DNA of 34,780 bases. It comes from Comamonadaceae bacterium CG2_30_57_122 (GTDB lineage Bacteria > Pseudomonadota > Gammaproteobacteria > Burkholderiales > Burkholderiaceae_C). The translations under genes were made by a program, and so were the position numbers. The notes beneath the pieces were generated by a model that was not told where the DNA came from, did not search any database, and was given only the letters and a program-made list of their open reading frames with translations. Shown here piece after piece: positions 299-24,400 of this stretch (within the stretch, counting starts at the first letter, position 1; each line of letters begins with the position of its first letter). The DNA lies in contig MNXW01000184.1 in the NCBI GenBank assembly GCA_001871515.1, forward strand, positions 10,180 through 44,959. Reading direction: 5' to 3'.

Positions 299-427
299 GG
301 GCTTCTCCGAAAAAACGCGATTGCAGTCCAACCGGGCTGTAAAAAGCAGATTGTCCCTGATTCTTTTCCTGGCCACGATTGACTATCATGGCGGGTTACC
401 AATTGCACTGTGAAGCACTGTGAAGAC

Positions 428-3400
428 ATGTTGAGCGCCTACCCTTTGACCCCTTTGTCCACCGCCCCACAAGCTGACGCGCTTGAGGGGCGCTACCTGG
501 GCGCAGCCCTGGCAGCGCAAACCATCAGCATTCGCGGCGCGCGTACGCACAACCTGAAAAACATCGACCTCGACATTCCACGCAACCAGCTGGTGGTGAT
601 CACTGGCTTGAGCGGGTCGGGCAAATCCAGTCTGGCGTTTGACACGCTGTACGCCGAAGGCCAACGCCGCTACGTGGAAAGCCTGTCCACCTACGCGCGC
701 CAGTTTTTGCAGCTGATGGACAAGCCAGATGTTGACATGATTGAGGGCTTGTCGCCCGCCATCTCCATTGAGCAAAAGGCCACCAGCCACAACCCGCGCT
801 CCACCGTGGGCACTGTCACAGAAATCCACGACTACCTGCGCCTGCTGTTTGCCCGCGCCGGCACGCCCTACTGCCCACAGCACAACTTGCCACTGCAAAT
901 GCAGACCGTCAGCCAAATGGTGGATGCCACGCTGGCGCTGCCCGAGGGCACCCGGCTGATGGTGCTGGCCCCGGTGGCGCGCGAGAAAAAAGGTGAATTT
1001 GCCGAGCTGTTTGCCGACATGCAGGCACAGGGCTACGTGCGCTTTCGCGTCAACCGCCAGACCTTTGAGTTTGACCAATTGCCCGCGCTGAAGAAAACCG
1101 AAAAGCACGACATCGACGTGGTGATTGACCGCATCAAGGTGCGCCACGCCCCACTTGAACCCGACACCGACCGCAGCGACTTTGACAACCTCAAGCAACG
1201 CCTGGCCGAGAGCTTTGAGGCGGCCCTGCGGGTCGCCAGCGGGCGCGCCATTGTTAATGAAATTGATAGCACCTTGCACAGTAATGACGAGGGCTACAGG
1301 CCAAAAGAGCACTTATTTAATGCCAAATTTGCCTGCCCGGTGTGCAGCTACTCGATCTCAGAGCTGGAGCCGCGCCTGTTCTCCTTCAACTCGCCTATCG
1401 GAGCCTGCCCGAGTTGCGACGGCCTGGGTGCCACCGAGGTGTTTGACGCGGCACGCGTCGTCGCTTTTCCCAGTTTGAGCCTGGCCAGCGGTGCCATCAA
1501 AGGCTGGGATCGGCGCAACGCCTACTACTTTGCCATGCTGGAGAGCCTGGCGGCACACTATAAATTTGATATTGAACAGCCGTTTGAATCCCTGCCCGAG
1601 CCGGTCCAACACGCCGTGTTGTATGGCTCTGGCGAGGTGGACATCAAGTTCAGCTACGAGCTGGGCTCCGGTGCATCGGCAGGCAAAAAGCTCAGCAAGA
1701 AGCACCCGTTTGAAGGCATCTTGCCCAACATGCAGCGGCGCTACCGCGAGACCGACTCTGCCGTGGTGCGCGAAGACCTGGCACGCCTGCGCAGCGTGCA
1801 GCCCTGCCCAGACTGCCAAGGCAGCCGCCTCAAGCGCGAGGCGCGCCACGTGAAGATTGGCGAAGGGGCGCAGTCACGCGCCATTTTCGAGCTCAGCCAC
1901 TACACCCTGGCCGAATGCTTTGCCTATTTCAACAGCCTGCAAATGCACGGCGCCAAGGGCGACATTGCCGCCAAAGTGGTGCGTGAGATCAGCCTGCGGC
2001 TGAAGTTTTTGAACGACGTAGGCCTGACCTACCTGAGCCTGGACCGCAGCGCCGAAACCTTGAGCGGTGGCGAGTCGCAGCGCATCCGCCTGGCCAGCCA
2101 GATTGGCAGCGGCCTGACTGGCGTGATGTATGTGCTGGACGAACCCAGCATTGGCCTGCACCAGCGCGACAACGACCGCCTGATCGACACCCTGAAGCAC
2201 CTGCGCAACATTGGCAACAGCGTGCTGGTGGTTGAGCATGACGAGGACATGATGCGCGCTGCTGACCAAATCATCGACATGGGGCCGGGTGCCGGCGTGC
2301 ACGGCGGGCGCGTCATGGCGCAAGGCACATTTGATGCGGTCAAAGCCAACCCCGACTCGCTCACCGGCCAATACCTCAGCGGACGCAAAAGCATTGCAGT
2401 GCCGACCCTGCGCACCGCCTGGCTGCCCACGCAAGCGCCAAAACCCTTCAACGGCGGCAAACCCAGCCGTTTTGCCCCCAGCCCAGCTGCGGTGCGTCGT
2501 GCCGAGCGCGAGGCGCAGCACAACGCCACGCTCGGCGAGTTGCAGGCTTTGAGAGTCATCGGTGCCAGCGGTCACAACCTCAAGGGGGTCGACGTGGCTT
2601 TTCCGGTGGGCTTGTTCACCTGCGTCACCGGCGTGTCGGGCTCGGGCAAGTCCACGCTGGTGAACGACACACTTTACAAGGCCGTGGCGCGCACCCTTTA
2701 CCGCGCCCATGACGAACCCTCTGAGCACGCCGCCATCGAAGGCATTGAGTACTTTGACAAAGTCATCAACGTGGACCAATCGCCGATTGGCCGCACACCG
2801 CGCTCCAACCCGGCCACTTACACCGGTTTGTTCACCCCGATTCGTGACCTGATGAGTGAGGTGCCCACCGCCCGTGAGCGCGGCTACGGCCCCGGGCGCT
2901 TCAGCTTCAACGTGGCTGGCGGCCGCTGCGAGGCCTGCGAGGGCGACGGCATGGTCAAGGTCGAAATGCACTTTTTGCCCGACGTGTATGTGCCCTGCGA
3001 CGTGTGTGCCGGCAAGCGCTACAACCGCGAAACGCTGGAAGTGCTCTACAAGGGCAAAAACATCGCGCAGATTCTGGACTTGACGGTAGAAGCCGCACAC
3101 GAGTTTTTCAAAGCCGTGCCGACCATTGAGCGCAAGCTGCACACGCTGCTGGACGTGGGTCTGAGTTACATCCGTCTGGGCCAAGCCGCCACCACCTTGT
3201 CTGGCGGCGAAGCCCAGCGCGTCAAGCTGGCCCTGGAACTGAGCAAACGCGACACCGGCCGCACGCTCTACATCCTGGACGAGCCCACCACCGGACTGCA
3301 CTTTGCCGACATTGATTTGCTGCTCAAAGTGCTGCACCAGTTGCGCGACGCGGGCAACACCATTGTGGTGATCGAACACAACCTGGACGTGATCAAAACC

Positions 3401-3532
3401 GCCGACTGGCTGATCGACATGGGGCCTGAGGGCGGCAGCGGCGGCGGCACGGTGGTGGGGGTCGGCACGCCTGAAACCCTGGCCACCAACCCGGCCAGCC
3501 ACACTGGGCGCTATTTGGCGCGGCTGCTGTAG
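428..3532 (+). CDS. uvrA: Excinuclease ABC subunit A (UvrA)
   Basis: ~1034 aa. Two ABC ATPase modules ([46 protein letters not shown]), signature motifs ([31 protein letters not shown]) and CxxC zinc motifs. ORF opens at GTG 410; ATG at 428. Confidence 0.98.
1255..1302 (+). repeat. Short dispersed AT-rich repeat inserted in frame in uvrA (copy a)
   Basis: ttaatgaaattgatagcaccttgcacagtaatgacgagggctacaggcc. Encodes the non-canonical [16 protein letters not shown] just before the conserved [14 protein letters not shown]. Shares the ...AAGGGCTAGAGGC-type 3' end with other copies in the window. Confidence 0.6.
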
Positions 3533-14130: not shown

Positions 14131-15102
14131 TCAGGTCACTGACTTGCCCTGCACCACGTCCAGCGCCAGGCACAAATCGGCCCAGGCCTTGCCCTTGTCC
14201 TGGCCGCTGCGCAGCAAATAGGCAGGCGGGTAAGTCACCACCACCGGCACCCCGGCAAAACGCCATACCTGGCCGCGCAGCTTGCCCAGCGGCTGTTTGG
14301 CTTGCTCGGGCGGGGTTTCGCTCAGCAGCAGGTGCATGGCGAAACGGCCCATGGCCAGAATCACTTTGGGTTGGGTGAGCGCAATTTCCCGGCGCAGGTA
14401 ATGGCTGCAGGTGGCCAGTTCATCAACGCTGGGGGCACGCGCCAGCGCTGGGCGGCACTTGAGCACAGGGGTCAGGTAAGCGCGCTTGGGCGCAGCATCT
14501 GCTGCACCGGCATCGACCCCTGACACCGTGCCAGGCTGCAGCCGCTGCACCCCGACGGCGCGCAGCATGTTGTCCAGCAACTTGCCTGGCGCATCGACAA
14601 ACGGCTGCCCCAGGCGTTCCTCTGTCTCATCCGGCGGATCGCCCACCACCAACCAGTCGCAGGGCACCAGCATGGACGGCGCATCCAGCACACTGGCGCG
14701 CCGCCCCAGACACATGGCGCAGGCCTGGCAAGCGGCCAGCGTTGCCTGCAGCTGCGGCCAGTCCATGTGGTCAATGCCCGGCGGCAAAGCGGTGACCCGG
14801 CTGGGCACAGCCCCACGCGGCGAGTCCGCCCGAACCGGCCGGTGCTCAACAACCGGTGGCACCTGTGGGGGAACTGCAGAAGCCGATGCCTCTGGCGCAG
14901 CTGCCACTGACACACCCAGCGGCGGCGCAACCGGCAAGGCCGACGGGCTTGCTTTGGCTTCTGGTTCTTGTGAACGATTTATGCCTCTAGCCCTTGTATT
15001 GTCTGTGCTAGTAGCTTCACTATCTGTAGCATCTGGCAGCCAGACGTGCACCCCCATCTCGTGCAGCATGGCGCGTTGGCGGGTGTCAAGGTCGAGGCTC
15101 AT
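14131..15102 (-). CDS. Uracil-DNA glycosylase (family 4/5-like) with long N-terminal linker
   Basis: CDWLVVGDPPDETEERLGQPFVDAPGKLLDNMLRAVGV...RAYLTPVLKCRPALARAPSVDELATCSHYLRREIALTQPKVILAMGRFAMHLLL...VVVTYPPAYLLR: UDG-superfamily motifs GDPPDxxE, GKLLDNML and TYPPAYLL. Confidence 0.88.
   Translation of the reverse strand: MSLDLDTRQRAMLHEMGVHVWLPDATDSEATSTDNTRARGINRSQEPEAKASPSALPVAPPLGVSVAAAPEASASAVPPQVPPVVEHRPVRADSPRGAVPSRVTALPPGIDHMDWPQLQATLAACQACAMCLGRRASVLDAPSMLVPCDWLVVGDPPDETEERLGQPFVDAPGKLLDNMLRAVGVQRLQPGTVSGVDAGAADAAPKRAYLTPVLKCRPALARAPSVDELATCSHYLRREIALTQPKVILAMGRFAMHLLLSETPPEQAKQPLGKLRGQVWRFAGVPVVVTYPPAYLLRSGQDKGKAWADLCLALDVVQGKSVT
14978..15032 (-). repeat. Short dispersed repeat in frame in the UDG gene (copy b)
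   Basis: Coding-strand sequence gatgctacagatagtgaagctactagcacagacaatacaagggctagaggcataaat; shares CAAGGGCTAGAGGCATA exactly with the copy in purK. Confidence 0.8.
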
Positions 15103-15117
15103 GGCTGCATTGTCCGT

Positions 15118-15597
15118 TCAAACCGGGGCGTCCAGCTTGCGGCTCATCACCACCGCATCTTCGCGCTGGCCATCGGCTGCCGGGTAGTAAGCCCGGCGTG
15201 TGCCCACGGTACGAAAGCCCTGCGCTTTGTAAACGTGGATCGCTCGGGTGTTGCCGGTGCGCGCTTCCAGCCAGAGCCACTGCACGCCTTGAGTGCGCGC
15301 CCAGGTGGCCAGCGCGTCCAGCATGACCCGCGCCCAGCCTTGGCGCTGGTAGCTGGGGGCCACGGTGATGTTGAGCAAATGCACTTCTTCAAAGCCTTTC
15401 ATGCCCACAAAGTAACCCAGCAAGGCATCGCCCGCCAGCAGCATCTGGCATGGGTAAGCACTTTCCAGACAGTCGGTGAAGTGGCGGCGCTGCCAGGGGT
15501 GCGGGTGAGCCTGGCGCTCCACGGCTACCACCGCCTCCAGGCTGGCCTCGGTCATGGGTTCGAAGCGGACTTCGATCGGGTTGGGCGGTCTCGTCAT
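15118..15597 (-). CDS. rimI: Ribosomal protein S18 alanine N-acetyltransferase
   Basis: GNAT fold signature VHLLNITVAPSYQRQGWARVMLDAL..WLWLEARTGNTRAIHVYKAQGFRTVGTRRAYYPA, the RimI hallmark; next to tsaB. Confidence 0.92.
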   Translation of the reverse strand: MTRPPNPIEVRFEPMTEASLEAVVAVERQAHPHPWQRRHFTDCLESAYPCQMLLAGDALLGYFVGMKGFEEVHLLNITVAPSYQRQGWARVMLDALATWARTQGVQWLWLEARTGNTRAIHVYKAQGFRTVGTRRAYYPAADGQREDAVVMSRKLDAPV

Positions 15598-15607
15598 GGT
15601 GTCAAAT

Positions 15608-16348
15608 TCAAGCCGATCTGCCCAGCACGGCTGGCGTGCCAACCGCCAGCGCAGCTTTGGCAGCCGCACGCTCCAGCGTGGTTTGTGCTACTTTGTCGCG
15701 AATGTAAATCGGCAGGGCCTGATCCGCTGGCAGCGCCGAGCCGTTAGCCAGCAAGCCAGGCGCCAGCCGCAACAGCGCCGCCGCCGTGGGCAGGGCATCC
15801 ACACGCTGTGCACCGGGCGTGTGCAGGCGTTCGCCATAAGCTGCAAACACATTGCCGGCCAGCACATCGGCTCCATTCCAGTTCAAATCTTCTGGATGAA
15901 TCAGGCTGTAACCCTTGTTTTTAATCCACAAGTCACTATTAAATGTATAGCTTGCTGTGTACAGCTCGTCCATCCGCGCATCGAGCAGGGCGGTCACCTG
16001 CAGGTTGGGCGCTGCGCCCAGTTGCAGGCGTGCGTCTTCGGCCACCGCCAGCAAGGTGTCTACCGGCAGCACCGGCAAGGCCGCGCCAAAGGCCAAGCCT
16101 TGCGCTACCGAGCAGGCGGTGCGCAAGCCGGTGAACGAACCCGGCCCGGCCCCGAAAACAATCGCCGTCAAGTCACCAAACTGCAGCCCGGCCTGCGCCA
16201 TCAGACGCTGAATTTCTGGAATCAGGTGGGTAGAAGTCAAGGCGCCACCAGCGGCGTTGTGCTGCCAGAGTTGCGCGCTGCTTCCCACGCCACGCTGCAA
16301 CGCAATCGACATGCGGTCAGTGCTGGTGTCAAAGGCCAATAGGTTCAT
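15608..16348 (-). CDS. tsaB: tRNA threonylcarbamoyladenosine biosynthesis protein TsaB
   Basis: MNLLAFDTSTDRMSIAL...STHLIPEIQRLMAQAGLQFGDLTAIVFGAGPGSFTGLRTACSVAQGLAFG: TsaB/YeaZ motif. Confidence 0.95.
   Translation of the reverse strand: MNLLAFDTSTDRMSIALQRGVGSSAQLWQHNAAGGALTSTHLIPEIQRLMAQAGLQFGDLTAIVFGAGPGSFTGLRTACSVAQGLAFGAALPVLPVDTLLAVAEDARLQLGAAPNLQVTALLDARMDELYTASYTFNSDLWIKNKGYSLIHPEDLNWNGADVLAGNVFAAYGERLHTPGAQRVDALPTAAALLRLAPGLLANGSALPADQALPIYIRDKVAQTTLERAAAKAALAVGTPAVLGRSA
15901..15953 (-). repeat. Short dispersed repeat in frame in tsaB (copy c)
   Basis: Coding strand gctatacatttaatagtgacttgtggattaaaaacaagggttacagcctga; aligns with the AT-rich repeat family and encodes SYTFNSDLWIKNKGYSLI. 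Confidence 0.6.
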
Positions 16349-16418
16349 AGGTTTCGATTTTAAAAAAGCCCCAACTTTCAAGTTGGAAAACTTAAAGTGA
16401 GGACGATGCAGCTTGAAT

Positions 16419-16446
16419 TTGACAGACAAGCCATACTATTTACAAT
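16419..16446 (+). promoter_or_regulatory. Sigma70-like promoter for the two-gene ATPase cassette
   Basis: Perfect -35 TTGACA (16419-16424), 16-nt spacer, -10 TACAAT (16441-16446), 31 bp upstream of the ATG at 16477. Confidence 0.7.
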
Positions 16447-16449
16447 GTT

Positions 16450-16463
16450 GAGTAAATTTACTC
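16450..16463. promoter_or_regulatory. 14-bp perfect palindrome at the predicted transcription start (putative operator)
   Basis: GAGTAAATTTACTC lies immediately after the -10 box. Confidence 0.55.
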
Positions 16464-16476
16464 AGTATGTTTTTTT

Positions 16477-17754
16477 ATGGTTTTCCAACGACATCAAGTT
16501 CAACTTCTGCAAAGCAGAATAGAAGAAGCACCACAGTTCATCACGATTGTGACCGGACCCAGGCAAGTGGGCAAAACCACCCTGGTACGCCAAGCGTTGG
16601 AACAATGCGCGCATCTTTTTTTGGCTGTTGACCAGCCCACAGAAGCACGCTCATTTTCCTACAGTAACTCCCGCACACAGAACATCATTGAGAACGAAGA
16701 TGCACCGCACGATGCCGCCTGGCTGATCCGGTGCTGGAAAGAAGCCCGCCAACGCTACCAAGCGTTTCAGCAAACCCACTCAGGGCAACCGTTTACCTTT
16801 GTGCTGGACGAAATTCAGAAACTGCCACGCTGGTCAGATACCGTCAAAGGCCTGTGGGACGCTGACCGCGCCCAAGGCCTGAACATGCACGTGATCCTGC
16901 TCGGAAGCTCACCTTTACTGATTCAAAAAGGTCTGACCGAAAGTCTGGCCGGGCGCTACGAGCTGATGCGCGTCATGCACTGGTCGTTTCTGGAAATGCA
17001 CCAGGCATTTGACTTCACACTCAATGAATACATCTACTTTGGCGGCTATCCCGGTGCGGCTCGCTTGATCCGTGACGAAGCCCGCTGGCGCAACTATGTA
17101 CTGGGCAGTCTGGTGCAGCCCAGCATCGACACCGACATCCTGCAAATGACCCGCGTGGACAAACCCGCTTTGCTCAAGCAGCTTTTTGAACTGGGGGCCA
17201 GCTATTCCGGCCAGTTGCTGGCTTTGGGCAAGGTCAAGGGTCAATTGCAAGACGCGGGCAACGAGACCACCCTGGCCGGATACCTCACCTTGCTGAGCAA
17301 TGCAGGCCTGCTCACCGGCCTGCAAAAATACCATGTGGGTGCAGCGCGGCGGCGTGCCTCGGCACCCAAGTTCAACGTGCTCAACACCGCCCTGATGTCC
17401 AGCGCCACACCCTACACCCTGACCCAGGCACAAGCGGATCGCAGCTACTGGGGGCGGCTGGTGGAAAGTGCGGTGGGCGCGCACTTGTGGAACACCGCCG
17501 CCAGTCATGAAGAAGTCAGCTACTGGCGCGAAAGCCCGCACGAGGTGGACTTTGTCATTTCCGATGCAGTACGCCTGACGGCGATTGAGGTAAAAAGCGC
17601 GGCCTCTGCGGGCAAGCTCAGCGGCCTGGAAGCATTTGCAAAACAACACCCCCATAGCAAACCCTTGCTGGTGGGCGCAGGCGGCATTGCGCTGACCGAG
17701 TTTTTGTCCTACCCCCTGGCCCATTGGCTGGATGGGCAATGCGTGCGGGCATGA
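16477..17754 (+). CDS. AAA_14/DUF4143-type ATPase with C-terminal PD-(D/E)XK-like motif
   Basis: Walker A VTGPRQVGKTTLVRQ, Walker B FTFVLDEIQKLPRWSDTVKGLWD, sensor HVILLGSSPLL, C-terminal YWRESPHEVDFVISDAVRLTAIEVKSA, typical of the family. Confidence 0.88.
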   Translation: MVFQRHQVQLLQSRIEEAPQFITIVTGPRQVGKTTLVRQALEQCAHLFLAVDQPTEARSFSYSNSRTQNIIENEDAPHDAAWLIRCWKEARQRYQAFQQTHSGQPFTFVLDEIQKLPRWSDTVKGLWDADRAQGLNMHVILLGSSPLLIQKGLTESLAGRYELMRVMHWSFLEMHQAFDFTLNEYIYFGGYPGAARLIRDEARWRNYVLGSLVQPSIDTDILQMTRVDKPALLKQLFELGASYSGQLLALGKVKGQLQDAGNETTLAGYLTLLSNAGLLTGLQKYHVGAARRRASAPKFNVLNTALMSSATPYTLTQAQADRSYWGRLVESAVGAHLWNTAASHEEVSYWRESPHEVDFVISDAVRLTAIEVKSAASAGKLSGLEAFAKQHPHSKPLLVGAGGIALTEFLSYPLAHWLDGQCVRA

Positions 17755-20700
17755 ATACCCGTTTCAGTCGCGATCAAGACCGCCTGCCGCTGGAGCGCAA
17801 AGCCCGAGCACGCAAAAAAGAGGATCGCCTAGGCAAGTCCCATCCCCTGAACCACTACCGAGACGTGCGCGCCTGGGTGCTGCTGGCTGACCCTGGTGCG
17901 GGCAAGTCAGATGTGTTCGCCACCCTGGCCTTCAGCGAAGGTGGCATCTACGTCAGCGCACGTGACTTTGTTGATTTGGATTTGCCCGCCAATTGGCAAG
18001 AGCCGCTGTTCATCGATGCCCTGGATGAAATCACCTCTGGCCATGCATCTGGGGCGACTCCACTGAGCCTGATACGTCAAAAGCTGCAACGGCTCGGTAC
18101 ACCCAAATTTCGCATCTCCTGCCGCGAAGCTGACTGGCGCGGCAATGCCGATGGGGATGCCCTCAAACGGCTGGCAGGTGACGACAACTTCGCCGAGCTG
18201 CACCTGACCCTACTGTCGCACAGGCAATCCGTGGCCCTGATCGCACACTGGCAAACCTGCCCAGAAGCACAAGCCGAAGCCTTCATGCAAGAAGCCCAAA
18301 AACGCGACCTTGAAGACCTGCTGGACAACCCGCAAACCCTGCGCTTGCTGGTTAAGGCAGTTGCCGCCCAGGGAGGTGACTGGCCCACCAGCAAAACCAA
18401 GACCTATGAAATGGCCTGTGCACAACTGGTGCGCGAGCACAACGACGAGCATCTGGCCAACAACCGTGACAGTACCCCGCCCGATGACCAGACGCTGCTG
18501 GCCGCCGGGTATTTGTGCGCTGTCATGTTGTTGTCGGGCAGCGCCGCCATCGCCTGGCAGCGGCAAGGCCAGCCGCCTGCAAGCGTGGTGATCTTGCCCG
18601 AGCTGCACAGCACCGCCCCGGCCCCCGACCTGCCCACCTGCCGGGTTGCGCTGCACACCCGCTTGTTCAGAGGCAATGGCACTGGCGATTTCTGGCCGGT
18701 GCACCGCACGGTAGCCGAATACTTGGGAGCACATTACCTTGCTGCTCGCATCAACGCTGGTCTGCCCGCCAGCCGCGTGCTGGCGCTGATGCTGGGCGAA
18801 GACGGTGGCCTGGTGCCCGAGTTGCGTGGCCTGCATGCCTGGCTGGCCGCTGTGGCCTCAACTGACTTGCGCCGCGAACTGATCGCACAGGATCCTTTGG
18901 GTGTGGTGCTGAATGGTGATGTGCGCAACTTCAGCCGCGCGCAAAAATTGCAATTGCTCAACGCCTTGCGTGATGAAGCCACGCGCTACACCTACTTCAG
19001 ACATCAAAGCTGGGGCAGCCATCCCTTTGGTGCGTTGGCCACGACAGACATGGAAGACGATTTCAAAGTCCTGCTGGCATCAGCCGACCGCAGCCCGCCG
19101 CACATGGCTGTGCTCGATTGCACGCTGAATGCCTTGACTCATGGGCTGCCCATGCCCGCATTGGCCCCGGCGCTTGAGCAGATTGTGCGAGACAAAACCT
19201 ATTGGACTGACTTGCGGCCTGATGCGCTGAATGTCCTTGTGATCTATGCGCAGGTTGAAAATGATGCTTCAACGCTCACTCACCTCCTGGCAAGCGTCTA
19301 CACCAACGTGGTGGAAGACCCAGAGGACGAGTTGCTGGGGACTCTGTTGCAGGCGCTTTACCCAGACCAAATTTCACCCAACCGGGTCTGGCAGTATTTT
19401 TGTGAGCCGAAGGCTAAAAATCTGCGGGGTGTCTACTGGCAGTTTTGGCACGAGTTACCTAAGCAAGCCGCCTCTCAAAACGAGATAGCCGTTCTGTTGG
19501 ATTCACTGGTTGGCATCGGCTACCAACTCAAAAATGAGTACGACCATTTAGGCTCAGCTGACATCGTTGGTGAATTACTGGTCTATGGCGTGCGCCAGCA
19601 CGGTGCTCAGATTGAAACGAAGCGTCTGTATGGCTGGCTATCTCTTGGCTTGGGGCCGCATGAGCACTGCCCGCTCAGCGCGGCGTTCAAGTCTGCACTT
19701 AAAGAATGGCTCAGTGACCAGCCATCACGCTACAAGGCTTTGTTTGAACATGGCCTGCAGTTACAAACGGCTGAAAGTGACAACGCATACCGCAATTTGT
19801 GGCGTGTTCGTGCACGACTCTATGGCGCAGCCGAGCCAGCCGATGCTGCGTCTTGGTATTTGTCCCTGGCAAATGCGAGCTCAAAAGATGCGTTACGACA
19901 ACAACTCGTTACCGAATCATTTCAACTTACCCGGCAAGAGGAAAGCGCGGATAAAGCACTACAACTGATTGAACAATGGGTTGCAAATTACCCCCTCGAC
20001 AACGCTTGGGCAGAAGATTTTTTACATTGTCCCTATCCACCCGAAGAATCCGAACAAGCGTACATTGATTCCGAGATCGATCACAAAAAAGACAAGGACG
20101 AGCAGAACCGTCAGCGCATCAACTTCTTTCGCAAAACTCTGCCAAACTTTGAGCACGGCCCGGCTCACCAGGGAGCGCTGGCGGAAGTGGCCAACGCCTA
20201 TCTCAACTTCTTTCGCCAATCACAACAAGAAACCCCGGATACGCGCCTGCTTGAGTTGCTGAATCAAAACAAAGAGTGGGTGCACCTTGCCTTGCGCGGT
20301 TTGCGTCAATGCCTGCTGCGCGACGACTTGCCGACTGCTGCTGACATCTTGAAGGTTCACGCGGAAAATCGCCGCTACACCTTGGCCAGCCCGTGCCTGG
20401 CGGCCATTGAACTGCGCTACACAAAAAATGCTGCGACAGCGTTTGATCTACCCACAAACACGCTTGAAACAGTTGCCTCTTTTCATCTGACCAACAATTT
20501 CTATGAAACTCCCGTGTGGTTCAAGCAACTGCTGACACAACGGCCAGAGGTTTTGATCAAGGTCATGGCCCCCCTGATTAGCCAACAAATTGCTGCCAAG
20601 TCTGAACACATAGAAGGCTTGTATAGCCTGGCCCGCAACCCTGACTATGCAACGGTTGCCAAGCAACTAGTGCCCCAATTGATTGCAGACTTTCCCATCA

Positions 20701-21854
20701 AGGCCAGCCAAAAGCAATTGAAAAACCTACGTTTGCTGATAGTTGCCGCCCTGAACCACCTGGATCAACAGAGCCAACTCACCTTGATTGCCAAAAAACT
20801 CAATACCAAGGGCATGGATGTGGCACAACAAGCATATTGGCTGGCTGCGGGCAGTTTGCTGGAACCCGATCTGTACCTTGACCGCTTACAGCAATTCGCC
20901 CATAAAACCCAGGCACGCGCCAGCCAGGTTTTCGCGCTGGTTCACGAGCTCAAAGGCACTGTTTTGACCACCGAACTCCCTGCCAAGACACAAACTTTCT
21001 TAGTTGGTTTATTAGGCCCTCGATGCAGTCGCAAAGAGCCCAGTACTGGGGTGTTTACCGTCACAGCAGAAATGGAAATGGGTGATTACGTGGCGGGTTT
21101 GATTTCAAACTTGTCGAACAACCCGGACGAAGCGGCCACACAAGCGCTGACTGACCTCCAGCAACGCCCTGACATGAAGCAATGGCATGACGCACTTAGT
21201 CGCGCCCTGTACGACCAACGCATCGCACGGCGCAAGGCGCTGTTCAAACCAGCCACGGTGAGGCAGGTATGCGCCACACTGGCCAATCTGCAGCCGGCCA
21301 ACGCGGCTGACTTGTGGGCGTTGACCGTCGCTCATCTGACTCACCTCATTCGCCAGATTCGCAACAGTGACAAAGACATCTACGACCAGTATTGGGACGG
21401 TGACACGCCAAAGTCTGAGGAGCGCTGCCGCAACGCCTTGTTGACGGCTCTCGAACCTCGCCTTTCACCCTTGGCGATTACTGCCATACCTGAGCGCCAG
21501 CTTGCTGACAAAAAACGGGCTGATATTGGCCTTGCCTCCGGGTTGATCCACATTCCGCTGGAAGCCAAGGGTGAGTGGAATCGCGACCTGTGGAAAGCCA
21601 TTGACAAGCAGCTGGTTGCCCAATACTGCAGAGAGCCAGCGTGTGGCGGGTACGGCATCTACCTGGTCTTCTGGTTCACCGGCGATATGAAAGCAGGAGC
21701 CACAGACGGCGGCAGTCCACCCAAAACGCCACAAGAGCTTCAGCAGCGCTTGGCAGCCACCGTACCGGACGCGCTAAAAAACAAAATTGCCGTTCTGGTG
21801 GTTGATTGCTCAAAACCGTCATCGACCAATTTCACAAAAGAAATCAGCCTCTAG
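17751..21854 (+). CDS. STAND/NACHT-like ATPase with long helical-rich middle region and C-terminal PD-(D/E)XK nuclease-like motif (1367 aa)
   Basis: Walker A LLADPGAGKSDVF, NACHT-type Walker B PLFIDALDEITSG, sensor-like FRISCREADW, post-NACHT motif FWPVHRTVAEYLGAHYLA. C-terminus RADIGLASGLIHIPLEAKGEWNRDLWKAIDKQLVAQY..GYGIYLVFWF gives D-x13-ExK...Q. ATG overlaps the upstream stop (ATGA). Confidence 0.8.
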   Translation: MNTRFSRDQDRLPLERKARARKKEDRLGKSHPLNHYRDVRAWVLLADPGAGKSDVFATLAFSEGGIYVSARDFVDLDLPANWQEPLFIDALDEITSGHASGATPLSLIRQKLQRLGTPKFRISCREADWRGNADGDALKRLAGDDNFAELHLTLLSHRQSVALIAHWQTCPEAQAEAFMQEAQKRDLEDLLDNPQTLRLLVKAVAAQGGDWPTSKTKTYEMACAQLVREHNDEHLANNRDSTPPDDQTLLAAGYLCAVMLLSGSAAIAWQRQGQPPASVVILPELHSTAPAPDLPTCRVALHTRLFRGNGTGDFWPVHRTVAEYLGAHYLAARINAGLPASRVLALMLGEDGGLVPELRGLHAWLAAVASTDLRRELIAQDPLGVVLNGDVRNFSRAQKLQLLNALRDEATRYTYFRHQSWGSHPFGALATTDMEDDFKVLLASADRSPPHMAVLDCTLNALTHGLPMPALAPALEQIVRDKTYWTDLRPDALNVLVIYAQVENDASTLTHLLASVYTNVVEDPEDELLGTLLQALYPDQISPNRVWQYFCEPKAKNLRGVYWQFWHELPKQAASQNEIAVLLDSLVGIGYQLKNEYDHLGSADIVGELLVYGVRQHGAQIETKRLYGWLSLGLGPHEHCPLSAAFKSALKEWLSDQPSRYKALFEHGLQLQTAESDNAYRNLWRVRARLYGAAEPADAASWYLSLANASSKDALRQQLVTESFQLTRQEESADKALQLIEQWVANYPLDNAWAEDFLHCPYPPEESEQAYIDSEIDHKKDKDEQNRQRINFFRKTLPNFEHGPAHQGALAEVANAYLNFFRQSQQETPDTRLLELLNQNKEWVHLALRGLRQCLLRDDLPTAADILKVHAENRRYTLASPCLAAIELRYTKNAATAFDLPTNTLETVASFHLTNNFYETPVWFKQLLTQRPEVLIKVMAPLISQQIAAKSEHIEGLYSLARNPDYATVAKQLVPQLIADFPIKASQKQLKNLRLLIVAALNHLDQQSQLTLIAKKLNTKGMDVAQQAYWLAAGSLLEPDLYLDRLQQFAHKTQARASQVFALVHELKGTVLTTELPAKTQTFLVGLLGPRCSRKEPSTGVFTVTAEMEMGDYVAGLISNLSNNPDEAATQALTDLQQRPDMKQWHDALSRALYDQRIARRKALFKPATVRQVCATLANLQPANAADLWALTVAHLTHLIRQIRNSDKDIYDQYWDGDTPKSEERCRNALLTALEPRLSPLAITAIPERQLADKKRADIGLASGLIHIPLEAKGEWNRDLWKAIDKQLVAQYCREPACGGYGIYLVFWFTGDMKAGATDGGSPPKTPQELQQRLAATVPDALKNKIAVLVVDCSKPSSTNFTKEISL

Positions 21855-21897
21855 CCCTTATTTAACCTGAGTAAGCAGCTTCTTTTTTAATAGCAAC
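21846..21897 (-). repeat. Short dispersed repeat between and within convergent gene 3' ends (copy d)
   Basis: Reverse complement ttgctattaaaaaagaagctgcttactcaggttaaataagggctagaggctgattt; includes AAGGGCTAGAGGC. Confidence 0.8.
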
Positions 21898-22872
21898 AGG
21901 CAAACTGGCACGCACGCCAAACAAAATCCCCAGCGTCACCAGCACCAGCCCGGCAGCCAGATTCCAGCGCAACGGCTCGCCCAGCAGCGCTACCGCCCCC
22001 AGGGCTGACAAACCCGGCACCAGCGCGGTGATCATGGTCGAACGCACCGGGCCATAGTGGCGAATCATCTGGGTAAAAGTAATGCCCGACACCACCACCG
22101 AGCCCCAGCCCTGAAATGCAGCCTGAAACAGCAGGTCGCGCCACGGTGCAGTAAACACATGGCCTTTCACCACACCGGTGAGCACCAGCACGCTGTAGCC
22201 GGGCAGATACACCACACAAGCCAGTGTGGTGATGGCAATGGTGGCACGCACCGCGTCCAGGCTGTGATGGCGCGCCAGCACGCTGTAGCTGGCCCAGCAC
22301 ATGGCCGCCAGCATGAACAACACGTCGCCCAACCAGACCTGGCCGCCGTCAAAAGCCCGCAGCAGGCTCAAGCCGCCCACCAACAGGTCACCCAGCACAA
22401 TCAGACCCAAGCCCATGAGCCGTGTCGGCGTGAGGCGCTCGCCTAACAACCACGCGGCCAGCAGCGCCGTCCACAACGGCAGACTCCCCGGCAACAACAC
22501 CGATGCGTGCAGCGCAGGTGCGTAGGCAAACCCGCTGTAAACCAGCAGGGCATACAGCAAGCCACCAAAAAAACCAGTTTTGACCGTGATCCCCGCCGCC
22601 AAAGGTGACACGCCCAACCAGGACGCGCCAACGCCGCCTTGGGCACGATCCCGCCACACCAGGTAAGCACCCCACGGCAGCAGGATCACACCCGCGCCAA
22701 GAATGCGGCAAAACGCAATGTCAAACGGGGTCAACACCCCGCCACGCGCCGGGTCGTTGGAGGCACGGGCGATCAGGATGAATGAGGTCCAGATCAGCAC
22801 CGTAACCACGGCCGCAGCCCAGCCCAGGCTGCGCGGGGAAAAACGATGCAATTTATGAGCGGACATAGGCAT
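21862..22872 (-). CDS. EamA/DMT-superfamily transporter
   Basis: About 10 TM segments; two EamA repeats (WAAAVVTVLIWTSFILIARAS.. and LGDVLFMLAAMCWASYSVLARHH). ORF opens further 5'; ATG at 22872 or 22866 is likely. Confidence 0.88.
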   Translation of the reverse strand: MPMSAHKLHRFSPRSLGWAAAVVTVLIWTSFILIARASNDPARGGVLTPFDIAFCRILGAGVILLPWGAYLVWRDRAQGGVGASWLGVSPLAAGITVKTGFFGGLLYALLVYSGFAYAPALHASVLLPGSLPLWTALLAAWLLGERLTPTRLMGLGLIVLGDLLVGGLSLLRAFDGGQVWLGDVLFMLAAMCWASYSVLARHHSLDAVRATIAITTLACVVYLPGYSVLVLTGVVKGHVFTAPWRDLLFQAAFQGWGSVVVSGITFTQMIRHYGPVRSTMITALVPGLSALGAVALLGEPLRWNLAAGLVLVTLGILFGVRASLPVAIKKEAAYSG

Positions 22873-22939
22873 GGCGCGATTATCCGTGCGCCGCCCATCG
22901 CTTGGCATCGCGATGCGCCGTAGCGCCCATAATTCAAGC

Positions 22940-24400
22940 ATGACCACCACCACTTTCAAACGCTTGTCCACCCTGGTGTTGCTGTGCACCGCCACATGGG
23001 TCAGTGCCGCGACACCTGCCCAGGTTCAAGTTTTACCCACTGAAGTCAGCGCCGCCCTGACCCGTGCCCATGTGCCTGCCCAGGCCTTGTCCGTCTGGGT
23101 GCAAGCCGCCGATGTCCAAGCCCCGGCTCGCCTGAGCCACCGTGCAGATGCCCCCATGAACCCGGCCTCGGTGATGAAGTTGGTGACCACTTACGCAGCC
23201 CTGGATGTGCTCGGCCCAGCGTTTGTCTGGCACACCCCAGTGTGGCTCGATGGCCCGGTGGAAAACGGTGTGCTCAAGGGCAACCTGGTGATTCAGGGCC
23301 AGGGCGACCCCAAGCTGGTGCAAGAGCGCCTGTGGCTGCTGCTGCGCCGGGTGCAGGGCTTGGGCGTGCAGCGCATTGCCGGCCACATCGTGCTCGACCG
23401 CCAGGCGTTTGCTGTGCCCGCCAGCGACCCCGGTGACTTTGATGGTGAGCCGCTGCGCCCCTACAACGCCGCGCCCGATGCCCTGCTGCTCAACTTCAAA
23501 TCCATCCTGCTGACCTTCACCCCAGATGCCACAGCAGGCATCGCCCGGGTGCAAATGGACCCGCCTCTGGCCGGGGTGCAGTGGCCCACGCAGATACCGC
23601 TGTCAAGCACCCCGTGTGGCAACTACCGCGCCGCGCTGGGGGCTGATTTTGCCGACCCGCAACACATCCGGCTGGCGGGCAGCTATCCGGCGGCGTGTGG
23701 TGAAAAAGTCTGGCCGGTGGCCTACGCCGACCCCGCCAGTTACAACGCCCGCGCCCTCGAAGGCCTGTGGCGCAGCATGGGTGGCCAGTTAGACGGCAAG
23801 GTGGTGGACGGCACAGCACCCGCCACTGCGCCCAGTTTCGAGATGCTGTCGCCCACGCTGATGGAGTTGGTGCGCGACATCAACAAGTTCAGCAACAACG
23901 TGATGGCGCAGCAACTGTTTTTGACGCTTGGCCGACCCGATGCCCCGCCCAACCAGGCTCAGCCAGCCAGCACGGGAGCAGCCACACCCGCAACATCCCG
24001 CGCCGCGCTGCACCAGTGGTGGCAGCGCCGCATCAGCGCCAGCAACGTGCCCGCCATCGACAACGGCTCGGGCTTGTCACGCCAGACCCGCATCAGCGCC
24101 GCGCAATTGGGGCTGCTGCTGCAAACCGCCTACGCCTCACCATGGATGCCAGAGCTGATGTCTTCGCTGCCGATTGTGGGGGTGGACGGCACGCTCAAGC
24201 GCAGCCAGGCGGGCGTGGGCAGTGCGCACCTGAAAACCGGCAGCCTGCGCGAGGTCACGGCCCTGGCCGGCTATGTGCACGCCGCCAGTGGCAAGCGCTA
24301 TGTGCTGGTGGCCATCGTCAATCACCCCAACGCCGCAGCAGCACGGCCTGCATTGGATGCGCTGGTGAACTGGGTGGTAAGAGACAATCTGCAACATTGA
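22940..24400 (+). CDS. dacB: D-alanyl-D-alanine carboxypeptidase/endopeptidase (PBP4, DacB)
   Basis: Signal peptide; SxxK in MNPASVMKLVTTYAALDVLG; SxN in FSNNVMAQQLFL; KTG in HLKTGSLREVTALAGYV. Confidence 0.93.
   Translation: MTTTTFKRLSTLVLLCTATWVSAATPAQVQVLPTEVSAALTRAHVPAQALSVWVQAADVQAPARLSHRADAPMNPASVMKLVTTYAALDVLGPAFVWHTPVWLDGPVENGVLKGNLVIQGQGDPKLVQERLWLLLRRVQGLGVQRIAGHIVLDRQAFAVPASDPGDFDGEPLRPYNAAPDALLLNFKSILLTFTPDATAGIARVQMDPPLAGVQWPTQIPLSSTPCGNYRAALGADFADPQHIRLAGSYPAACGEKVWPVAYADPASYNARALEGLWRSMGGQLDGKVVDGTAPATAPSFEMLSPTLMELVRDINKFSNNVMAQQLFLTLGRPDAPPNQAQPASTGAATPATSRAALHQWWQRRISASNVPAIDNGSGLSRQTRISAAQLGLLLQTAYASPWMPELMSSLPIVGVDGTLKRSQAGVGSAHLKTGSLREVTALAGYVHAASGKRYVLVAIVNHPNAAAARPALDALVNWVVRDNLQH

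Follow-up and report, generated by a model that had tools for sequence, protein, structure and literature searches.

The window, by which we mean the whole 34,780-nt stretch of DNA analysed here, carries two forward-strand genes between a tsaB gene and an EamA transporter gene that both face the opposite way. The stop codon of the first gene and the start codon of the second share the letters ATGA (17751-17754). Both reading frames, their overlap and their place between the two flanking genes are all present as described in an earlier note made from the sequence of this DNA. The features of the locus are as follows.

15608-16429, minus strand: tsaB, flanking the pair in the opposite direction
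16419-16446, plus strand: sigma-70-like promoter, TTGACA - 16 nt - TACAAT, 11/12 (consensus scan, consensus match only)
16449-16464, no strand: putative operator, the perfect 16-bp palindrome TGAGTAAATTTACTCA, spanning the predicted transcription start
16477-17754, plus strand: DUF4143 protein gene, 425 aa, AAA_14 ATPase with DUF4143 PD-(D/E)XK-like domain, PDC-S01 subfamily PDLC04791
17751-21854, plus strand: EruA-type NACHT protein gene, 1367 aa counted from ATG, NF058535 match
17871-18785, plus strand: NACHT NTPase and the helical/winged region that follows it, residues 41-345, model pLDDT 86, Foldseek matches NOD2 (3.8e-7), NLRC4 and NLRP3
18786-21104, plus strand: alpha-solenoid, putative sensor, residues 346-1118, all-helical model
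21417-21806, plus strand: C-terminal PD-(D/E)XK nuclease core, residues 1223-1352, with E1223, E1248, D1258, E1271-x-K1273 and Q1287
21862-22995, minus strand: EamA transporter gene, flanking the pair in the opposite direction

The large protein aligns over its full length, and collinearly, with the NCBIfam model of the antiphage NACHT protein EruA (NF058535; protein residues 17-1354 against positions 2-1318 of 1318), and its score of 988.8 bits narrowly misses the curated cut-off of 1000. The second-best NCBIfam match, HyoA (NF058534), reaches 157 bits, far under the HyoA cut-off of 1200. Pfam (including its NACHT family), PHROGs and PADLOC returned no match to the large protein, searches with it against PDB sequences gave none, and the PDB sequence searches overall yielded nothing useful. 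Walker A (ADPGAGKS, 46-53), Walker B (LFIDALDE, 86-93), the post-NACHT motif (HRTVAEYL, 318-325) and the C-terminal motif are all present as previously read, but the last is spaced D1258-x12-E1271-A-K1273, followed by Q1287-L-x3-Y1292, rather than with the thirteen residues given for it. In 28 full-length homologues, drawn from several classes and including some above the EruA cut-off, the residues of the NTPase side (G49, G51, K52, D89, D92, E93, R125, H318 and E323) and of the nuclease side (E1223, E1248, D1258, E1271, K1273, Q1287 and Y1292) are invariant (28/28), and the motifs are therefore not chance occurrences. In 64 members of the pair, the same residues vary little or not at all.

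AlphaFold models, built from the large protein and its relatives, reveal a P-loop NTPase followed by a long alpha-solenoid in the N-terminal part (pLDDT 86) and a PD-(D/E)XK core of alpha-beta-beta-beta-alpha-beta topology in the C-terminal part (pLDDT 88). For the first 1119 residues, Foldseek finds NOD2, NLRC4 and NLRP3 nearest (best 3.8e-7) and Avs3 lower (8dgc, 7e-4), and these folds, together with the conserved motifs, identify a NACHT module. Matches to the C-terminal model are each weak (E at least 0.014) and fall mostly on PD-(D/E)XK nucleases, its structural neighbours being Can1, Can2/Cdn1, EcoT38I, Bax1, McrC, SfsA, EndoMS and Hjc; the D...ExK residues sit on the core that defines this fold. 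Motifs, invariant residues, AlphaFold and Foldseek thus agree on the STAND/NACHT ATPase with a C-terminal nuclease that the earlier note had proposed, with confident models for the NTPase half and the nuclease half. By its sequence and its models, the large protein is kin of EruA, built like NOD-like immune receptors and with a predicted DNA-cutting domain at its tail.

This architecture differs from that of bNACHT and NLR-related proteins with an N-terminal effector, as the ATPase begins at about residue 41 and the nuclease occupies residues 1223-1352. The reversed layout pointed out earlier is real but is not special to this locus: all EruA family members aligned have a C-terminal nuclease and, since the residues of this nuclease are invariant in homologues that include over-cut-off EruA, the layout belongs to the whole family. 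The suggestion that the protein might be undescribed finds no support, because a named family, EruA, has the same architecture. In bNACHT25, a bacterial NACHT protein that also has a PD-(D/E)XK DNase effector, the N-terminal PD-(D/E)XK domain degrades DNA upon infection (PMC12169576); bNACHT proteins carry the effector N-terminally and the sensor C-terminally (PMC12169576), whereas the nuclease of the window protein is C-terminal. Avs (AVAST) proteins likewise join a STAND ATPase to a long helical sensor, and Avs3 appears in the fold search, but the window protein has no N-terminal effector and no sequence match to the PADLOC Avs models. Compared with its homologue in Rhodoferax sp. U11-2br, which belongs to the same genus as the Rhodoferax-like MAG of the window, the large protein shows identities of 0.46-0.47 over residues 500-1130 and of 0.72-0.76 in the NACHT part. 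The solenoid is thus the fastest-changing region, which fits the expectation for a sensor. Over whole proteins, the identities between these two loci (window against G751, L161) are 85% for the DUF4143 protein and 59% for EruA.

The small protein matches AAA_14 (4.5e-23) and DUF4143 (1.2e-24) in Pfam, and its best PADLOC model is PDLC04791 of PDC-S01, matched over its full length (residues 1-417 against 1-393 of 395, 1.1e-161), which confirms the AAA_14/DUF4143 partner named before. Walker A and Walker B, together with E356, D358, E371 and K373, are kept in 64 pair members, and the nuclease residues of the DUF4143 domain show no variation in either pair or solo members. A survey of defence in archaea and bacteria ranks PDC-S01 fourth in prevalence among prokaryotic defences; it describes a fusion of an ATPase with a PD-(D/E)XK member, listed as a single-gene candidate without experimental support (PMC12988326). 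The small protein has the same make-up, an ATPase with a PD-(D/E)XK-like domain, but is half of an EruA operon rather than a single gene, and an operon with EruA is found in 69 of the 80 nearest EruA loci. We note that two genomes of the same class, each below 2 Mb (G016 and G050), hold 20 and 21 DUF4143 matches, an unusual expansion.

These loci come from a profile scan of genome contigs that found 410 EruA-type relatives, the best 80 of which were retained; a single-sequence scan of the same contigs with the large protein gave no match. A DUF4143 gene lies directly upstream on the same strand in 69 of these best 80 of 410 loci, a count that takes in loci showing just the DUF4143 3' end where the contig begins; the pairing noticed earlier is thus conserved. 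Among the other 11, three have a split or remnant DUF4143 gene, five have none despite room for it, and three are not judgeable. According to record titles, pairs among the best 80 of 410 loci occur in nine phyla (Pseudomonadota, Acidobacteriota, Chloroflexota, Nitrospirota, Nitrospinota, Latescibacterota, Gemmatimonadota, Dadabacteria and Binatota), the records being mostly MAGs, of which single labels may be wrong. The exact 4-bp overlap of stop and start (ATGA, GTGA or TTGA) is found in 55 of 68 pairs by script and in 57 of 68 by eye.

In a FastTree phylogeny of 106 EruA proteins, whose outgroup is not clean, every pair falls into one clade with a local support of 100. Five changes suffice on this tree if remnants are scored as pair, and a slower 31-row tree agrees, bar one row whose upstream DNA ends with the contig. 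We read this distribution as a DUF4143 partner that was probably gained once and lost a few times while EruA was kept. Pairwise identities of the DUF4143 and EruA proteins correlate across 64 loci (r = 0.91, shared species history included). Both the DUF4143 partner and the operator are missing from all nine over-cut-off EruA loci that we fetched (0/9). The pair loci thus form a two-gene variant of EruA, a widespread and tightly linked pair whose window member lies just under the EruA cut-off. The partner is nonetheless dispensable for EruA, which several lineages retain without DUF4143. Among DUF4143 genes that have no EruA, the nearest show 48-53% identity and have housekeeping genes as neighbours.

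The palindrome TGAGTAAATTTACTCA directly follows the promoter-like site and lies 12 bp ahead of the DUF4143 start. It is a single copy in the 2.95-Mb host genome when up to two mismatches are allowed, and with this one site in the genome we reject a host regulon. Of the 65 pair loci with room for it, 60 carry the palindrome at the corresponding place (62 of 65 after two start-codon corrections), compared with 1 match in 1.5 Mb of shuffled control at the same stringency. Its outer arms covary to about 18 bp per side, with 80.9% of cells paired against 33-42% in slid alignments, and changes on both sides occur in 128 cells against 38-60 in the slid controls; at the window locus, the arms beyond the 16-bp core are poor. 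An mRNA hairpin is unlikely in the window because the predicted transcription start falls inside the palindrome. An Rfam scan gave no match in the window. In three pair loci (L172, L232 and L239), tandem double TGAGTAAATTTACTCA palindromes precede the DUF4143 gene.

EruA loci without a DUF4143 partner, whether inside or outside the clade, have no palindrome at the promoter. Conversely, DUF4143 genes without EruA in other Pseudomonadota and in Bacteroides are preceded by direct repeats of the same half-site, TTGAGTAA, at 22-bp spacing, and such a gene in Collinsella by tandem palindromes of TACTCAGTATACTGAGTA. As the half-site stands before solo DUF4143 genes and is absent from partnerless EruA, the motif goes with DUF4143 and not with EruA. 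In our view the most informative features of the system, both absent from the earlier note, are the operator, a conserved palindrome, and the translational coupling seen throughout the clade, and the shared palindrome suggests that the small protein controls the pair.

We therefore favour, with moderate confidence, a two-gene NLR-like antiphage cassette in which EruA serves as sensor, switch and nuclease and is held in check by a promoter-binding DUF4143 ATPase. The fast-evolving alpha-solenoid of EruA would sense an infection cue, the NACHT domain would switch and, with ATP, oligomerise, and the C-terminal PD-(D/E)XK domain would cut DNA, by analogy with bNACHT25, with abortive infection as the probable outcome. 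The DUF4143 protein, a co-translated ATPase for which we assume a DNA-binding part, would recognise TGAGTAA half-sites in the promoter of its own cassette and, by binding to the operator, would repress expression of the cassette; its ATPase or nuclease may couple release to infection. In this picture the domains, catalytic residues, pairing, coupling, single clade and operator are computational results, while sensing, cleavage, binding by the DUF4143 protein, repression and defence by the pair are inference. An antiphage role of the pair, a candidate reading of the earlier note, is likely in view of the NF058535 match, the term antiphage being applied to the window protein because of the NCBI curation of its relatives.

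The DUF4143 protein may instead be a second effector or a co-sensor complexed with EruA, the palindrome being bound by a host-encoded regulator or forming a structured site. The invariance of all DUF4143 nuclease residues, in pair and solo members, is more than a pure repressor needs, and the overlapping genes suggest a fixed stoichiometry. However, the half-site also accompanies DUF4143 genes without EruA, EruA outlives the loss of its partner, and a host regulator is hard to reconcile with a TGAGTAAATTTACTCA site that occurs once in the host genome and is common to nine phyla. We consider this explanation unlikely.

The genomic neighbourhood bears on whether the pair serves defence at all. 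In most genus relatives with a readable site, tsaB adjoins the EamA gene and the pair is missing (empty site), while in the window and in Rhodoferax sp. U11-2br (G751) the pair is inserted between the two; the same tsaB-dacB site contains the pair in five more loci of Comamonadaceae or relatives. The udg-rimI-tsaB / eamA-dacB site recurs for the pair in Comamonadaceae (L160-L163, L165, L185 and window 14131-24400) and represents a fixed position or an insertion hotspot. A defence-island context, which the earlier note had raised, was not found: among 123 nearest neighbours of pairs, assessed with no control set, PADLOC gave a handful of matches and no sign of defence-island enrichment, and several of these matches are helicases that may be housekeeping. 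Housekeeping genes make up most of the immediate neighbours, and guilt by association therefore lends no support. Elsewhere in the window, PADLOC mad3/mad8 matches at 410-3529 fall on UvrA and are likely false positives of those models.

Housekeeping neighbours and the recurrent position beside tsaB would suit a DNA-maintenance or stress module that kept its NACHT-nuclease layout by descent. We find this improbable given the patchy presence of the pair, with the tsaB-eamA site empty in most genus relatives with a readable site, the match to the curated antiphage family NF058535, and the solenoid as the fastest-changing region. Also against it, single-gene EruA relatives (about 25-33% identical; L017-L026) reside on conjugative or large plasmids, where some adjoin Ppl, Abi, AbiE or TIR genes. 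Equally doubtful is a toxin-antitoxin-like unit, in which direct contact with the DUF4143 protein would keep a toxic EruA nuclease in check, with autorepression in the style of type II modules: upstream position, coupling and palindromic operator resemble antitoxin-first operons, but a cell that loses a true antitoxin should die, while five clade loci have an intact EruA and no DUF4143 gene, three have a remnant or split gene, and single-gene EruA relatives are common.

The EruA architecture and the PDC-S01 candidate family were known; the pairing of DUF4143 with EruA-like genes, the coupling and the operator are new. A link is thereby drawn between a very abundant, functionally blank defence-candidate family and an NLR-like antiphage nuclease that already has a name, and the palindrome offers a concrete candidate DNA target. 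If the DUF4143 protein does bind the operator, survey counts of PDC-S01 may tally regulators or switches and not effectors.

Promoter repeats extend beyond the pair. Of 59 DUF4143 genes, 32% have exact promoter repeats of 10 nt or more, compared with 5% of 258 control ORFs. Since some of these genes are interrelated and many of the control ORFs are possibly spurious, the wider claim is provisional. The spacing of the repeats gathers at 22-23 and 45-46 bp. Tentatively, DUF4143/PDC-S01 proteins in general could be self-recognising, operator-binding ATPase-nucleases, each lineage reading its own 22-23-bp-spaced or palindromic promoter repeats. The EruA pair would then be a case of such a switch coupled to an NLR-like nuclease, perhaps acting as a guard: disturbance of the promoter complex by infection would set the cassette free. 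The repeat sequence differs by DUF4143 subfamily, examples being TTTACAATTGGACG, AATAACGAATAGACGA and ATTGAGTAAAATTA (L121-L159, L242-L295). The host genome itself holds a second, distant DUF4143 gene (L157, G000:C153) with its own promoter palindrome, AATAGTCGCGACTATT, and a half copy 32 bp on.
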